Part shown: piece by piece, positions 31,475 to 60,917 of the stretch
How the letters are laid out: the number at the start of each line of letters is the position of its first letter
How positions within the stretch are numbered: the stretch's first letter is position 1
From: Candidatus Nitrosopumilus sp.
GTDB taxonomy: Archaea; Thermoproteota; Nitrososphaeria; Nitrososphaerales; Nitrosopumilaceae
DNA: 64,000 nt
NCBI RefSeq assembly: GCF_029882185.1
Contig: NZ_JAOULD010000003.1
Span: forward strand, 1 to 64,000
Reading direction: 5' to 3'
Notes under the pieces: generated by a model
Told to the model about the DNA's origin: nothing
Databases searched by the model: none
Seen by the model: only the letters and a program-made list of their open reading frames with translations
Translations under genes and position numbers: made by a program

Positions 31475-33169
31475 ATGGGAATGCAAGCAACCTCAAAGGG
31501 AACTATGCCCGTTGTTTTGCTAAAAGAGGGTGGTTCTGAAACTAAAGGACGAGAAGCCCAAAAAAATAACATAGCAGCAGCTAAAATTATCTCTGAAATT
31601 GTTCATACCAGCCTTGGACCTCGAGGTATGGATAAAATGCTAGTCGATTCATTAGGTGACGTTACAATTACCAATGATGGTGCAACCATCCTAAAAGAAA
31701 TTGATGTACAACATCCAGCAGCAAAAATGCTAGTTGAAATCTCAAAAACTACAGATAACGAAGTTGGTGACGGTACAACATCTGCTGTAATTCTAGCTGG
31801 TGCTTTATTATCACAAGCAGAATCATTAATTGATTCAGATGTACATCCAACAATTATTGTTGATGGATATAGAAAGGCTGCAAGAAAAGCAAAAGAATTC
31901 TTGGAAGAAATTGCTGATACAATTTCTGCAAATGATAAAAATATTTTAAATAAAATTGCAAAAACTTCAATGCAAACAAAACTTGTTAGAAAGGATTCTG
32001 ATCTTCTTGCAGATATTATTGTAAAATCAGTGCTTGCTGTTTCAGAAAAAACTGGCGAATCTTTCGATGTTGATATTGATGATATCAAGGTTGAAAAGAA
32101 AGCTGGTGGTTCAATTAAAGATTCTACGATTATACAAGGCATTGTTCTTGACAAAGAAATTGTTCATGGTGGAATGCCTAGAAAAATTACAGATGCTAAA
32201 ATTGCATTAATCAATACCGCATTAGAAATTAGTAAAACTGAAACTGATGCAAAAATCAATATTTCAAATCCTCAACAATTAAAATCATTTTTAGATGAAG
32301 AAAATAGAATGCTAAAAACAATGGTTGACAAAGTTATCGGTTCTGGTGCTAATGTAGTCTTATGTCAAAAAGGATTGGATGATATGGCTCAACATTATCT
32401 TGCAAAAGCAGGAATTATTGCTGTTAGAAGAATTAAAGAAAGTGATCTTACAAAATTAGCAAAAGCAACAGGTGCTCGAATAGTTACAAATCTTGATGAT
32501 CTTTTTGAAAAAGATCTTGGTTCTGCTGAGGTTGTTGAAGAGAAAAAAATTGAAGAAGACAAATGGGTATTTGTTGAAGGATGTAAACATCCAAAATCTG
32601 TAACATTACTTCTTCGTGCAGGTTCACAAAGAGTTGTTGATGAAGTTGAACGCTCTGTTCATGATGCTTTAATGGTTGTAAAAGACGTAATGTTAAAACC
32701 ACAAATAGTTGCAGGTGGAGGAGCTCCTGAAACATTTGCTGCAACCAAAATTAGAGGTTGGGCAAAGTCTTTGGAAGGTAGAGAACAACTTGCAGCAGAA
32801 AAATTTGCAGATGCTCTAGAAGAAATTCCAATGGCACTTGCTGACAATGCTGGAATGGATCCAATTGATACACTTACACTTCTTCGTTCAAAGCAACAGA
32901 AAGGAGAGAAATGGACTGGAATTGATGTAATGAAGGCAAAGATTGGTAATATGAAATCAAGTGATATTATTGAACCACTTGCAGTCAAACTTCAAATTGT
33001 TTCAGCAGCTGCCGAGGCTGCATGTATGATTCTTAGAATAGATGATATTATTGCTACTCAAAAATCTGCAGGTGGACCACCTAGTGGTGAAGGCGGAATG
33101 GGTGGAATGCCTGGAATGGGTGGAATGCCTGGAATGGGTGGAATGCCTGACATGGGTGGAATGATGTAA
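31475..33169 (+). CDS. Thermosome (group II chaperonin) subunit
   Basis: 564 residues from ATG 31475; a TTG three codons upstream is possible but the TATA box at 31444 points to the ATG as a leaderless start. The group II chaperonin motifs are present: TSLGPRGMDKML near residue 44, GDGTTSAVILAG near 90, and GGGAPE near 405. The tail is a run of GGM-PGMGG repeats, typical of CCT/thermosome subunits. It forms a double ring that folds proteins with ATP. Only one subunit gene is seen here. Confidence 0.95.
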   Translation: MGMQATSKGTMPVVLLKEGGSETKGREAQKNNIAAAKIISEIVHTSLGPRGMDKMLVDSLGDVTITNDGATILKEIDVQHPAAKMLVEISKTTDNEVGDGTTSAVILAGALLSQAESLIDSDVHPTIIVDGYRKAARKAKEFLEEIADTISANDKNILNKIAKTSMQTKLVRKDSDLLADIIVKSVLAVSEKTGESFDVDIDDIKVEKKAGGSIKDSTIIQGIVLDKEIVHGGMPRKITDAKIALINTALEISKTETDAKINISNPQQLKSFLDEENRMLKTMVDKVIGSGANVVLCQKGLDDMAQHYLAKAGIIAVRRIKESDLTKLAKATGARIVTNLDDLFEKDLGSAEVVEEKKIEEDKWVFVEGCKHPKSVTLLLRAGSQRVVDEVERSVHDALMVVKDVMLKPQIVAGGGAPETFAATKIRGWAKSLEGREQLAAEKFADALEEIPMALADNAGMDPIDTLTLLRSKQQKGEKWTGIDVMKAKIGNMKSSDIIEPLAVKLQIVSAAAEAACMILRIDDIIATQKSAGGPPSGEGGMGGMPGMGGMPGMGGMPDMGGMM

Positions 33170-56650: not shown

Positions 56651-57799
56651 ATGGTTGAAAATAATTATGATATTCTAGGGATTTTAGAAGGTTCAACAGA
56701 AAAAGAAATTCGAGATGCTTTTAGAAGATTAGCTCTCCAATTTCATTCAGATCGTGGAGGTGAAAATGAACAATTTATCAAAATTAAACAAGCATACGAT
56801 GATCTAAAAATTGGAAAAAAATATCCAGAAACTGATCATGAAAAATTAAAAAATTCCAAAGTATATTCTGAAGATTCTGAGGCTGATGTTAGGAGGAAAA
56901 ATCAGATTTTAGGTCAAGAATTATCCAAAGAAATGAAAACTGCTGAAGATTGGGCTTCATCTCTAAATAACACAAACACTACAGGAACTAGATTATTTGG
57001 TTCGAAAACTCTTGGCGAAATTGAACTAGAAAGAAAAGCAACTGGCGCATTATCAATTAAAGGAAATTTCATGGCTGGAAAATTTACTTATGATGGTCCG
57101 ATTATAATGCAAGGAAGTATTACTAGTCCATCATGGACGCAAGAATACCAAACAAACATTCGAGTAACTAATGGAGATTTTAAATTTGTAAATCCGTTAG
57201 AAAATAAATACAAAATTGATAACGGTGCTAAAATTATTGTTGACAATGGTGATGTTATAGTCGGAAATGTTTATGGTAGGAAATTTCGAATTGAAGATCC
57301 TGTACGTGTAGGAGTTTTCCAAATTCAAGAACACAGAACTCAAATCTTAGCTCCTAAAGGAAAAATTATCGTAGAAAATCTTGTTAACACGGTATCACTT
57401 GAAGCAGATTCAGTCATTGTTTTGAATGTAGAAGATGATGTAATAATCTCTGCAAGAGAGATTTTATTTTATGGTGGAAAACTCACTTATGATTCTGTAA
57501 TTGAGCTAAAAAAAGGTGGAATAATCAGATTTTTTGAAAATTTTTCTATTCAGGGTTTAAGCGGTGACGCAATTATCAAACTTGAAAATGGTAAAAAAAT
57601 TAGATTGTTTGATCTAAAAACTAAAAAAATCAAAGACTTGGCAGACGAATTTGTACAAAATAAAGAAAATTACAACAAAGATGCTACAATGGTTGGACAT
57701 GGATTTACAATCACATATGAAATGCTAGATAATCTATCTCTGAAACCTGCAAAACAAAAACAGGGATGGGGATCAAAATTTAGTTTTTTTAAAAAATAA
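56651..57799 (+). CDS. J-domain protein with HSD in place of HPD, fused to beta-rich domain
   Basis: 382 residues. A J-domain is found at about 4-60: YDILGILEGSTEKEIRDAFRRLALQFH. The key loop reads HSD instead of HPD (HSDRGG), which in classical J proteins abolishes stimulation of DnaK. A beta-rich region at about 115-330 with many short strands, repeated GKIIV-, VIVL- and IIRFF-type segments follows and resembles beta-helix or AIM24-like folds. No zinc finger. The protein could be a scaffold with a dead J-domain. No DnaK gene is seen in this window. Confidence 0.75.
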   Translation: MVENNYDILGILEGSTEKEIRDAFRRLALQFHSDRGGENEQFIKIKQAYDDLKIGKKYPETDHEKLKNSKVYSEDSEADVRRKNQILGQELSKEMKTAEDWASSLNNTNTTGTRLFGSKTLGEIELERKATGALSIKGNFMAGKFTYDGPIIMQGSITSPSWTQEYQTNIRVTNGDFKFVNPLENKYKIDNGAKIIVDNGDVIVGNVYGRKFRIEDPVRVGVFQIQEHRTQILAPKGKIIVENLVNTVSLEADSVIVLNVEDDVIISAREILFYGGKLTYDSVIELKKGGIIRFFENFSIQGLSGDAIIKLENGKKIRLFDLKTKKIKDLADEFVQNKENYNKDATMVGHGFTITYEMLDNLSLKPAKQKQGWGSKFSFFKK

Positions 57800-57860
57800 T
57801 TTCCCCCAAAATCAAATTTTAGGCGTAAAAATGACCCTTTCTCATAAATAAGCCTCTTTT

Positions 57861-58472
57861 TTGAAAATAATAATGAAAAAGATAGAGGCTGTAATCAAAC
57901 GAAGAAATTTTCCTACAATTAAAACAGATTTGAACATACTTGGAACATACATTATTGATAAACGAAACTTGGATGACAGTCAAATTTATGACGAATCACA
58001 AGGTTCTCGCGCAGGAGCAACTGGATTAAAGTCAGTACCTCTTGCAAAAATCGAAATGGTAGTTTCTGACAAAGATGCTAGAAAAGTCGTTGAAATGATT
58101 TCAAAAAATTCTGGTTTACCATCATTTCATGGAGGAAAAATCTTTGTTTCTGAAATGGAAGAGGTTGTAGACATGGAAACTCTTGATGCACAACAAGATC
58201 TTGAAATGACTACGCAACCAAAAACAGAACCAAAAAAATCATCTAAACGAAGCAGATTTGTTCCTTTACAAAAATTCATTTTAAACAAATTACAAATCAT
58301 TTATGAAGAAAATAAAGAAACACTTCATGATGATTACAGAATAAAATCATTTAGTGACTTTGTAAACTATTGTATCATGAAATCGTTACCAACTCTAGAA
58401 AAGCAACTAAAGAATCCTACAATGATATATGAAAATAATTTTGGCGAGATTACTAATTACACAAAAATATAA
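57861..58472 (+). CDS. Divergent PII-like protein with C-terminal extension
   Basis: 203 residues; initiation at MKKIE (about residue 5) is likely. Residues 5-115 have the PII layout: KKIEAVIKRRN, a short T-loop region containing GSRAGATGLK, then KIEMVVSDKDARKVVEMI and GKIFVSEMEEVV. The T-loop lacks the standard Tyr and the length of GlnK. The C-terminal 85 residues are a new domain with a basic linker (KSSKRSR) and helices (FVPLQKFILNKL). It is transcribed toward the glnK operon, tail to tail. A role in nitrogen sensing is inferred from the context. Confidence 0.65.
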   Translation: MKIIMKKIEAVIKRRNFPTIKTDLNILGTYIIDKRNLDDSQIYDESQGSRAGATGLKSVPLAKIEMVVSDKDARKVVEMISKNSGLPSFHGGKIFVSEMEEVVDMETLDAQQDLEMTTQPKTEPKKSSKRSRFVPLQKFILNKLQIIYEENKETLHDDYRIKSFSDFVNYCIMKSLPTLEKQLKNPTMIYENNFGEITNYTKI

Positions 58473-58693: not shown

Positions 58694-59023
58694 TTAGATT
58701 GTTTTGTCCCCTTCTTCACCTGTAGCAATATCTACTGCACGTAATATTTGTGAAACAAAGATTTTACCAACTCTACCATGTTCTTTAATGATATTTATGA
58801 CTTGATCTTCTTTTGCTTCTGAAATTATGGCTTCTAATCTATATTTATCATTGAATTGTGGTACGAAAATCTCACTTCCCTTTGATGCGTGAATCTCAGA
58901 ACCTGGTTTCTTTCCTCTTCCTCTTACTTTAGAGACAGTTAGACCGCCAATACCAATTTCTTTTAATCCTTCACTAATTGCCATTACGTCATTTTCTCCT
59001 AGAATTACTTCTATTTTGAGCAT
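58694..59023 (-). CDS. glnK: PII signal protein GlnK
   Basis: 109 residues of the PII fold. LKIEVILGENDVMAISEGLKEIGIGGLTV, the T-loop region with VRGRGKKPGSEI and FVPQFNDKYRLE, and the end GRVGKIFVSQILRAVDIATGEEG (ATP/2-oxoglutarate-binding region) are typical. PII trimers sense ATP/ADP and 2-oxoglutarate and block the pore of Amt channels. The T-loop has no Tyr in the usual place, so uridylylation is unlikely. It is divergent from amt, with the repeat array in between. Confidence 0.92.
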   Translation of the reverse strand: MLKIEVILGENDVMAISEGLKEIGIGGLTVSKVRGRGKKPGSEIHASKGSEIFVPQFNDKYRLEAIISEAKEDQVINIIKEHGRVGKIFVSQILRAVDIATGEEGDKTI

Positions 59024-59067
59024 TTAGATATTATATGACAATTTACACAAATATAATTTCTGATTTT

Positions 59068-59188
59068 GATAATCATTTGATAATCATTTGATAATCATTT
59101 GATAATCATTTGATAATCATTTGATAATCATTTGATAATCATTTGATAATCATTTGATAATCATTTGATAATCATTTGATAATCAAAT
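59068..59188. repeat. Array of eleven 11-bp tandem repeats between glnK and amt
   Basis: The unit GATAATCATTT is repeated head to tail from 59068: ten perfect copies (starts at 59068, 59079 and so on to 59167) and a final variant at 59178 (GATAATCAAAT). The unit contains the near palindrome TGATAATCA. A period of 11 bp is close to one helical turn, so all sites would face one side of the DNA. The array fills most of the space between the divergent glnK (59023) and amt (59227) starts. Confidence 0.95.
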
Positions 59189-59226
59189 TTAGACATTGTT
59201 ATTAATTTAAAATCAAATTTTTTATC
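59189..59226 (+). promoter_or_regulatory. Probable amt promoter
   Basis: An AATTTAAAAT TATA-like box at about 59205-59213 lies roughly 20 nt before the ATG at 59227. This fits a leaderless or nearly leaderless transcript. The tandem array begins immediately upstream, at the distance expected for an activator or repressor to affect BRE/TATA use. Confidence 0.5.
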
Positions 59227-60555
59227 ATGGTACTGGATTCTGGAGATACAGCATGGATGCTTGTCGCTGGTAGTCTCGTACTTTTAATGATCCCTGCATT
59301 AGGTCTCTTTGAATCTGGCCTTTTGAGAAAGAAGAATGCGGCATCAATTTTTATGCAGATCTTCTTTGGTTTGGCACTTTTGAGTGTCATGTGGTTTGTA
59401 TTTGGATTTAGTTTATCATTTGGTGAATCCACTATGGGTTTTATTGGTAACAATGAATGGGTATTCCTTAAAGGAGTTCCATCTGATGCTCCACTGGAAC
59501 AATATGCCCCAACAATTCCAGGTGTGTTATTTGTCAAATTCCAATTGATGTTCGCAGCAATTACTCCACTTTTACTAACAGGAACAATTGCTGAAAGAAT
59601 GAAATTTAGCTCATTTATCATCTTCATCGCTGCATGGTCCATGCTAATCTATTATCCTCTCGTACACTGGGTATGGGGTGGCGGTTGGTTAGCACAATTA
59701 GGTGTTGTTGACTTTGCTGGTGGTATTGTAATTCATACAAGTGTCGGTATGGCAGCACTTGCTGCAGCAATAGTACTTGGTAAAAGAAGAAATTATGGTC
59801 CTGCCATTATGATTCCTCACAGTATTCCACTTGCTGTCCTAGGTTCTTCATTACTGTGGCTTGGATGGTTTGGATTTAATGCTGGTAGTGCTCTATCTGC
59901 ATCTGGTGGTGTTGCAGGTAACACTGTAATTGTAACTCACATGGCATCTTCTGTTTCTGCTTTAATTTGGGCTGGTCTTTCTTGGATTAGAACTGGAAAA
60001 CCATCTGTTGTAGCAACAATTAATGGTGCAATTGCAGGTTTGGCAGGTATTACTCCAGCATCTGGATTCGTTAGTGCCGAACATGCTTTTGTCATAGGAA
60101 TTGCAATCGGTGCAATCTCATACTCTGGTGTGGTATTATTCAAAGAAAAATTAAAGATTGATGATGCACTTGATGTAAGCTCTGTTCACGGGGTTGCTGG
60201 TATTGTTGGTGCATTAGCTATAGGAATTTTTGCAAGTACCGCAATTAATCCTGGAGGCGTTGATGGTTTACTCTTTGGAAATTCTGATCAGCTCTGGATA
60301 CAAGCAGTAGGTGTTGCTGTTGCAGCTGTAATGGGCTTTGGTGGAACTTGGATAATTTTACAAATACTTAAGCGTCTTATTGGAATTAGGGTCTCACCCG
60401 AAGTGGAAGATATTGGATTGGATATTAGCGAACATGCTGAATCTGCATATTCTGATGAAGAGGAGTTCTTGTTAGGCATGGATGAATATACAGATGATTT
60501 GCAGGAAAAGGATGAAATACTATTCAAGAAGAAGTCAACTAGCGCTGAAAAATGA
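59227..60555 (+). CDS. amt: Ammonium transporter (Amt)
   Basis: 442 residues with eleven membrane helices. The pore histidines lie in GGIVIHTSVG (about 165) and DVSSVHGVAG (about 320). The cytoplasmic C-terminal region GIRVSPEVEDIGLDISEHAESAY is the regulatory segment that PII contacts, followed here by an acidic extra tail of about 35 residues (EEEFLLGMDEY...), longer than in many Amts. For an ammonia oxidiser it supplies the substrate, and it is next to glnK. The stop overlaps the next gene (ATGA). Confidence 0.95.
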   Translation: MVLDSGDTAWMLVAGSLVLLMIPALGLFESGLLRKKNAASIFMQIFFGLALLSVMWFVFGFSLSFGESTMGFIGNNEWVFLKGVPSDAPLEQYAPTIPGVLFVKFQLMFAAITPLLLTGTIAERMKFSSFIIFIAAWSMLIYYPLVHWVWGGGWLAQLGVVDFAGGIVIHTSVGMAALAAAIVLGKRRNYGPAIMIPHSIPLAVLGSSLLWLGWFGFNAGSALSASGGVAGNTVIVTHMASSVSALIWAGLSWIRTGKPSVVATINGAIAGLAGITPASGFVSAEHAFVIGIAIGAISYSGVVLFKEKLKIDDALDVSSVHGVAGIVGALAIGIFASTAINPGGVDGLLFGNSDQLWIQAVGVAVAAVMGFGGTWIILQILKRLIGIRVSPEVEDIGLDISEHAESAYSDEEEFLLGMDEYTDDLQEKDEILFKKKSTSAEK

Positions 60556-60917
60556 CAATCAATTACGACCAATTAACAAAACAAGTCCTTGAATTAGATA
60601 ATAAAGTAAGATTTGCAGGTGTTGCAAATAGTAAAGGCGAAATGATTGCTGGTGGGCAAAAAGATGGTGTTGCAAAGATTTTAGACGGTGATAATGTCAA
60701 AATGTCAATTCATTATGCATTACAAAAACGGGATCTTTATACCAATCTAGCATACAAAATTGGTTCAGAATTATCATCAATAACAGAATACGAAAAAGTT
60801 ACAATGATTAGTATTCCCATAAATTCCAACGACTTGTTTATGATCAGTACTGAACCAAGAGCAGACTATTTGAAAATTATTGATTTTGTTCATTCAGAAC
60901 TTAATTCCCAAAAATAA
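60552..60917 (+). CDS. Small conserved protein (DUF6659-like), translationally coupled to amt
   Basis: 121 residues, alpha/beta. The order helix, strand (VRFAGVANSKGEMIAGG), long helix, strands (YEKVTMISIPINSNDLFMIST), helix resembles Roadblock/LC7 folds, which form regulatory platforms for nucleotide-binding proteins. The DUF6659 assignment is from memory of thaumarchaeal proteins and is tentative. It overlaps the amt stop by four bases and is 62 nt before the cyclase gene. Confidence 0.65.
   Translation: MTINYDQLTKQVLELDNKVRFAGVANSKGEMIAGGQKDGVAKILDGDNVKMSIHYALQKRDLYTNLAYKIGSELSSITEYEKVTMISIPINSNDLFMISTEPRADYLKIIDFVHSELNSQK

Follow-up and report, generated by a model that had tools for sequence, protein, structure and literature searches.

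MetJ and Arc are ribbon-helix-helix (RHH) repressors with tandem operator arrays. The RHH protein omega of pSM19035 binds 7-10 consecutive 7-bp WATCACW repeats that overlap promoters, with low affinity for a single repeat and one dimer on each (PMC9499535). The locus described here, a repeat array between the divergent genes glnK and amt, resembles these RHH operators in its short contiguous sub-sites, of which it has at least two, set at a fixed pitch beside promoters. It differs from them in its unit of 11 bp rather than 7 or 8, in that two to three copies are its normal state, in its setting at an archaeal nitrogen locus, and in that its binder is a candidate protein whose RHH nature is suggested by sequence comparison.

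Other known systems share further features with the locus. Control of glnK-amt by nitrogen status is found in other archaea, namely methanogens, whose NrpR binds sites of the form GGAA-N6-TTCC; this operator is absent here, and the 203-bp intergenic region (59024-59226) is free of GGAA. Known PII proteins (GlnB/GlnK) act on partner proteins. The locus encodes a protein, PII-X, that likewise has a PII domain scoring above the Pfam cut-off and aligning with archaeal GlnK structures, but that adds a conserved C-terminal domain common to small RHH-like proteins. Promoters tuned or phase-varied by VNTRs also carry perfect short repeats, likely slippage-prone, between promoter elements, whereas the repeats here are amplified putative regulator sites outside the core promoter. 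Likeness to a Fur box is limited to the TGATAATCAT core: the array contains neither the GATAATGATAATCATTATC 19-mer nor the GATAAT hexamer array, and its period is 11 rather than 6.

In the window, by which we mean the whole 64-kb stretch of DNA analysed, the strongest tandem array found by TRF consists of eleven perfect copies of TTTGATAATCA at 59065-59185 (121 bp, assigned to neither strand; period 11, 11.0 copies, 100% matches, score 242). The initial annotation had counted ten perfect copies and one variant. This is the same array in another register, with ten perfect copies of GATAATCATTT at 59068-59177 followed by GATAATCAAAT at 59178-59188, and TRF confirms its eleven units. The longest run in which every base equals the base 11 positions further on is 110 bases in the window; in thirty first-order Markov sequences of 64 kb it never exceeds 14. 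The core of the unit, TGATAATCA, is a palindrome except for its central base. No exact three-copy match was found in viral contigs. A hairpin or cruciform role was considered and rejected, strand self-pairing being weak (z -1.8). Elsewhere in the window, an 18-bp repeat, GGAATGGGTGGAATGCCT, is present in 3.8 copies at 33095-33163, where it is likely coding (a Gly/Met-rich tail).

The array occupies the middle of the intergenic region. On one side lies glnK, encoding an ordinary PII protein of 109 aa (58694-59023, minus strand; Pfam P-II, E 9.3e-16), and on the other amt, encoding an ammonium transporter of 442 aa (59227-60555, plus strand; PF00909, E 1.5e-117; TIGR00836 above cut-off), the two flanking genes being those named from the sequence at the outset. 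The presumed glnK TATA box (59052-59057, minus strand; TATAAT on the plus strand, ATTATA on the minus) lies some 30 nt ahead of the glnK start, and ACAAATATAATTTCTG is almost invariant there in 24 relatives. The presumed amt TATA box, TTATTAAT (59199-59206, plus strand), has its centre some 25 nt before the amt ATG, with GTTATTAaTT kept in the 24 relatives; this spacing would imply a leaderless or nearly leaderless amt transcript. Between the outermost copies and the presumed TATA boxes lie 7 and 13 bp, which puts the copies near where TFB contacts the BRE; protein bound along the whole array would thus reach both promoters. Downstream, a DUF6659 gene (60552-60917) overlaps the amt stop codon by 4 bp; because of this overlap it is probably co-transcribed with amt, and it may be part of ammonium signalling.

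A search with the amt protein covered 100 relatives, and the region upstream of amt was read in 29 of them. The window amt is of an accessory type, and many genus genomes without it retain a second amt; the closest amt gene found, that of L277, has 89% DNA identity to it. All 29 relatives have glnK divergent to amt together with a short form of the array, and the comparison that the initial annotation had proposed thus finds the array present in relatives in a short version. In the nearest group, exactly 48 bp separate the presumed TATA boxes (ATATAATTTCT and GTTATTA elements) in 23 of 24 relatives; the twenty-fourth, L029, has an altered flank base and misses the flank pattern, yet it has three copies and was counted in the column conservation. 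The corresponding block in the window measures 136 bp, which is 48 bp plus 8 x 11 bp, or eight added units. Throughout the nearest group there are three units at an unbroken 11-bp pitch. Across the 24 relatives, the G of TGAT (columns 37, 48 and 59) is conserved at 100% in every unit, as is the C of ATCA in the second and third (columns 54 and 65), whereas the spacers (AAA, ATT, TTT) and the centre bases vary.

Four good copies are absent from the 94 other genomes of the genus (95 including the window's own; one genome per species). The genome G108 has three perfect copies and a weak fourth, upstream of the gene for PII-X rather than of amt. Three sites, spaced 11 and 10 bp, occur in a second clade of the genus. 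Motif sites with at most one mismatch in 36 genus genomes all lie at amt-glnK or PII-X, with one exception: a near-perfect 11-bp motif pair within coding sequence (G010:C28:292-311, L065), which is probably due to chance. The array in the window is a lineage-specific expansion of what appears to be an old three-site operator. Since the unit is perfect and the relatives have three copies, a recent expansion from three to eleven, through slippage or unequal exchange, is supported, in line with the recent slippage suggested from the window alone.

The same sites can be followed beyond the genus. Other genera of the family have two to three sites at the same place, as in L269, with TTTGATAATCATTTGATAATCATTTTTAG, and L275, with three perfect units. 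More remote scans used a weight matrix built from the 24 relatives only. In Nitrosocaldaceae, which have PII-X, this matrix detects a pair at 11-bp pitch ahead of amt (p 0.001-0.003, from genomes that are not mutually independent); PII-X there is preceded by a weaker pair (p 0.008-0.021). Most amt genes of families without PII-X have no phased pair (L103, L104, L105, L112, L113 and L115; p 0.4-0.94), the exception being a weak pair at L102 (p 0.03); nor is there a phased pair upstream of the second amt at L109/L114. In a Nitrosocaldaceae genome with PII-X (G060), a further amt, L116, has a weaker 11-bp pair about 218 bp upstream (p 0.009), making it a possible third member of the regulon.

That the phased sites at amt form an operator, and an old one, is well supported by their presence across the family and in Nitrosocaldaceae. 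Because the site is old and conserved, the array reads as an amplified operator rather than as a repeat that may have gained a function. The conserved G/C positions and the pitch in relatives also support the earlier suggestion of a repeated regulator site at the divergent amt-glnK promoter, and the array is very probably bound by a protein. In the window's own genome (1.66 Mb), the unit pair is absent outside the array at up to two mismatches in a pattern search, and a looser pattern with up to three mismatches occurs at five places outside it, the same number as for a reversed-pattern control. As the motif pair elsewhere stays at control level, the regulator looks dedicated and local.

A candidate for this regulator adjoins glnK on the side away from amt. 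PII-X (57873-58472, plus strand) is a protein of 199 aa in which a PII domain (residues 1 to about 105; Pfam P-II, E 8.2e-10; PF00543, 39.4 bits against a cut-off of 25) is followed by a C-terminal extension. PII structures in the PDB are its best fold matches. By eye, PII-X keeps the Lys of LxKIE and GKIFV, while the RTGE-like segment and the C-terminal ATP-site residues of classical PII are lost, and this loss makes ligand sensing by PII-X uncertain. In the second clade of the genus, PII-X lies beyond amt, with a phased array of its own (for example TGATTATCAAATGATTATCATCTGATAATCA in L093); in another genus, L273 likewise has PII-X with such an array. No phased array is present at the PII-X promoter in the window's own group. 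What is conserved there, directly ahead of the PII-X start (57743-57872 in the window, and L070-L091), is another element, TGATAATGACCATTTCTGATAAATA or one like it, which may be a further regulator site plus a TATA box.

The PII-X C-terminal domain goes with the window-type amt in nearly every genus genome, and most genomes lacking that amt lack the domain too; G004 and G035, among the exceptions, are assemblies that are fragmented or incomplete. Linkage accounts for part of this co-occurrence, since in most genomes PII-X lies next to amt-glnK. In L274 and L276, PII-X has no adjoining amt, and the 5 kb read there contain no array. A PII search of wider genome contigs returned mostly bacterial PII, and only two Nitrosocaldus loci were useful. 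In L096 and L097 (G029 and G027), the linker of PII-X between its PII and C-terminal domains contains ESEIESEIESEIESE, repeated in frame; this is a further spot in the system that is prone to slippage.

The C-terminal domain of PII-X (residues about 124-184; 58242-58424, plus strand) is the part of the protein that suggests contact with DNA. The window's genus and Nitrosocaldus have almost the same sequence in this domain (RSRFVPLQKxTLxKL...YRIKSFSDFVNYCI), while the whole proteins share only about 38%. Relatives of the domain occur across the phylum as standalone and multi-domain proteins of 57-209 aa, with the pattern 'KGFKTVTLREKV...SFSDFLNFIL', a strand and then two helices. Ten diverse members were combined in a profile, which, compared by hhalign with an RHH reference of Arc, CopG and NikR only (sequences checked against the PDB), gave E 0.0017 and a probability of 16%, with the strand and both helices in register; against a LacI-type HTH control the same profile gave E 0.66 and 0.1%. 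An hhalign profile of PII-X alone gave no RHH signal. In Pfam, standalone relatives of the domain have weak RHH_5 and RHH_1 matches (E 0.04 and 0.035), and the domain of PII-X itself has nothing above cut-off: DUF1599 and RepB_C score far below it and were taken as chance. PHROGs has no family for the domain. Its structure model is helical with a confident core (pLDDT >90 for 29 residues) and finds no fold match in the PDB or BFVD; a lone RHH monomer model could not display the intermolecular sheet. The full-length AlphaFold model, made from three input sequences only, is poor (pLDDT 58). On these comparisons, we hold that the domain is fairly probably RHH-like, and DNA binding by it is probable. 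An archaeal family of 175-209 aa (L258, L259, L267, L268, L225 and L278-L283) is related to this domain and has up to three tandem RHH-like domains (MPxxGYxTIGLKPxI...); no Pfam family matches it.

We propose, as a moderately probable explanation of the whole, that the array is an amplified conserved operator of both the amt and the glnK promoters, with PII-X as the most likely regulator. Each 11-bp unit would offer a 9-bp pseudo-palindrome, TGATNATCA, to one regulator dimer, a natural arrangement given that the unit is near-palindromic, and the pitch would place neighbouring dimers side by side. PII-X is the likely binder of the array, at a strength somewhat below that of the explanation as a whole: its PII domain would sense nitrogen or energy status and its RHH-like domain would contact the DNA. 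Ligand control of PII-X is a tentative part of this picture. Because PII proteins are trimers, two of them would bring together six chains and thus three DNA-binding dimers, which fits the three sites of most relatives; a strict three-dimer rule is poorly fitted by some genera, in which only two sites are recognisable. As the sites end just outside the presumed BRE/TATA of both promoters, bound protein could exclude or recruit TFB/TBP.

In the same explanation, slippage or unequal exchange would have added eight units while leaving the distances from the outermost copies to the TATA boxes unchanged. Eleven sites could bind at least three dimer-of-trimers complexes, raise occupancy or titrate a scarce regulator. 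Copy number may also, as the initial annotation suggested, differ from strain to strain and adjust ammonium uptake. The period had been taken at first to be near one helical turn, with binding on one DNA face as a possibility. At 10.5 bp per turn the 11-bp pitch drifts by 34 degrees over three copies, for which the idea stands, but by about 171 degrees over eleven, for which it does not. With a drift of about half a turn, the eleven sites would not all share one face unless the DNA or the protein absorbs the twist. An effect of the extra copies, eleven compared with three, is a tentative suggestion. It is as tentative a suggestion that PII-X is a one-component factor (PII plus RHH) acting as a dimer of trimers on three phased sites, a switch that the eleven-site amplification re-tunes or titrates.

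Alternatively, the expansion from three to eleven could be neutral, a minisatellite that grew by slippage within a functional operator and changes little there. Such a reading bears on the added copies alone and can stand beside PII-X acting at an amplified operator. The identity of all units, which points to a recent origin, the lack of such an expansion in the 94 other genus genomes, and the intact terminal flanks with unaltered copies next to the TATA boxes are what a neutral expansion would leave. Nevertheless, with 88 bp and eight sites added between two promoters, occupancy could change or a scarce local regulator be titrated, and we regard neutral growth and a functional effect of eleven copies as about equally possible.

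A different doubt concerns the protein. The three-copy operator could be real and be read by another factor, of Lrp/AsnC, DtxR/Fur or TrmB type, with PII-X lying nearby and acting otherwise. Archaea have many Lrp and DtxR regulators, the assignment of PII-X to RHH is weak, and the PII-X promoter of the window's group carries no array. A global regulator, however, would ill suit a site pair that is unique to the amt-glnK locus in its genome and nearly so across 36 genomes. Further, the motif does occur at PII-X promoters in the second clade, in L273 and in Nitrosocaldaceae, and to our knowledge Lrp and Fur sites have no repetition at 11 bp. We therefore consider another factor rather unlikely.

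An assembly artefact in the copy number is very unlikely: the genome is in 102 contigs and the 121-bp array is near short-read length, but short-read assembly tends to collapse repeats rather than expand them, and the array passes cleanly into the conserved flank on each side, its terminal copies in place. Also very unlikely is a DNA-shape element for bending or histone/Alba positioning, for which the AAA/TTT spacers every 11 bp, the weak self-pairing (z -1.8) and the chromatin proteins possessed by archaea of this group might speak, since conservation peaks at the G and C of TGAT/ATCA while the A/T spacers vary.

Ammonia-oxidising archaea are among the most abundant cells in the ocean, and we know of no account of the transcriptional setting of their ammonium transporters. 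A literature search with most subscription journals outside its scope yielded no described operator or regulator for amt in these archaea and no PII-RHH fusion, and Red Sea transcription-start data (PMC5069720) contain nothing on the amt-glnK promoter. In N. maritimus, expression of the low-affinity amt is lowered under ammonia starvation, and this amt type has a patchy distribution (PMC7490402). The window amt is patchy too, a likeness in distribution alone and not an assignment of orthology. For amt control in ammonia-oxidising archaea, the analysis yields a conserved putative operator and a single candidate protein. The expansion from three to eleven units provides a natural experiment on operator number. 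If the proposed role of PII-X is true, a PII protein fused to its own DNA-binding domain would represent a new wiring, leading from nitrogen sensing to transcription without a partner factor.
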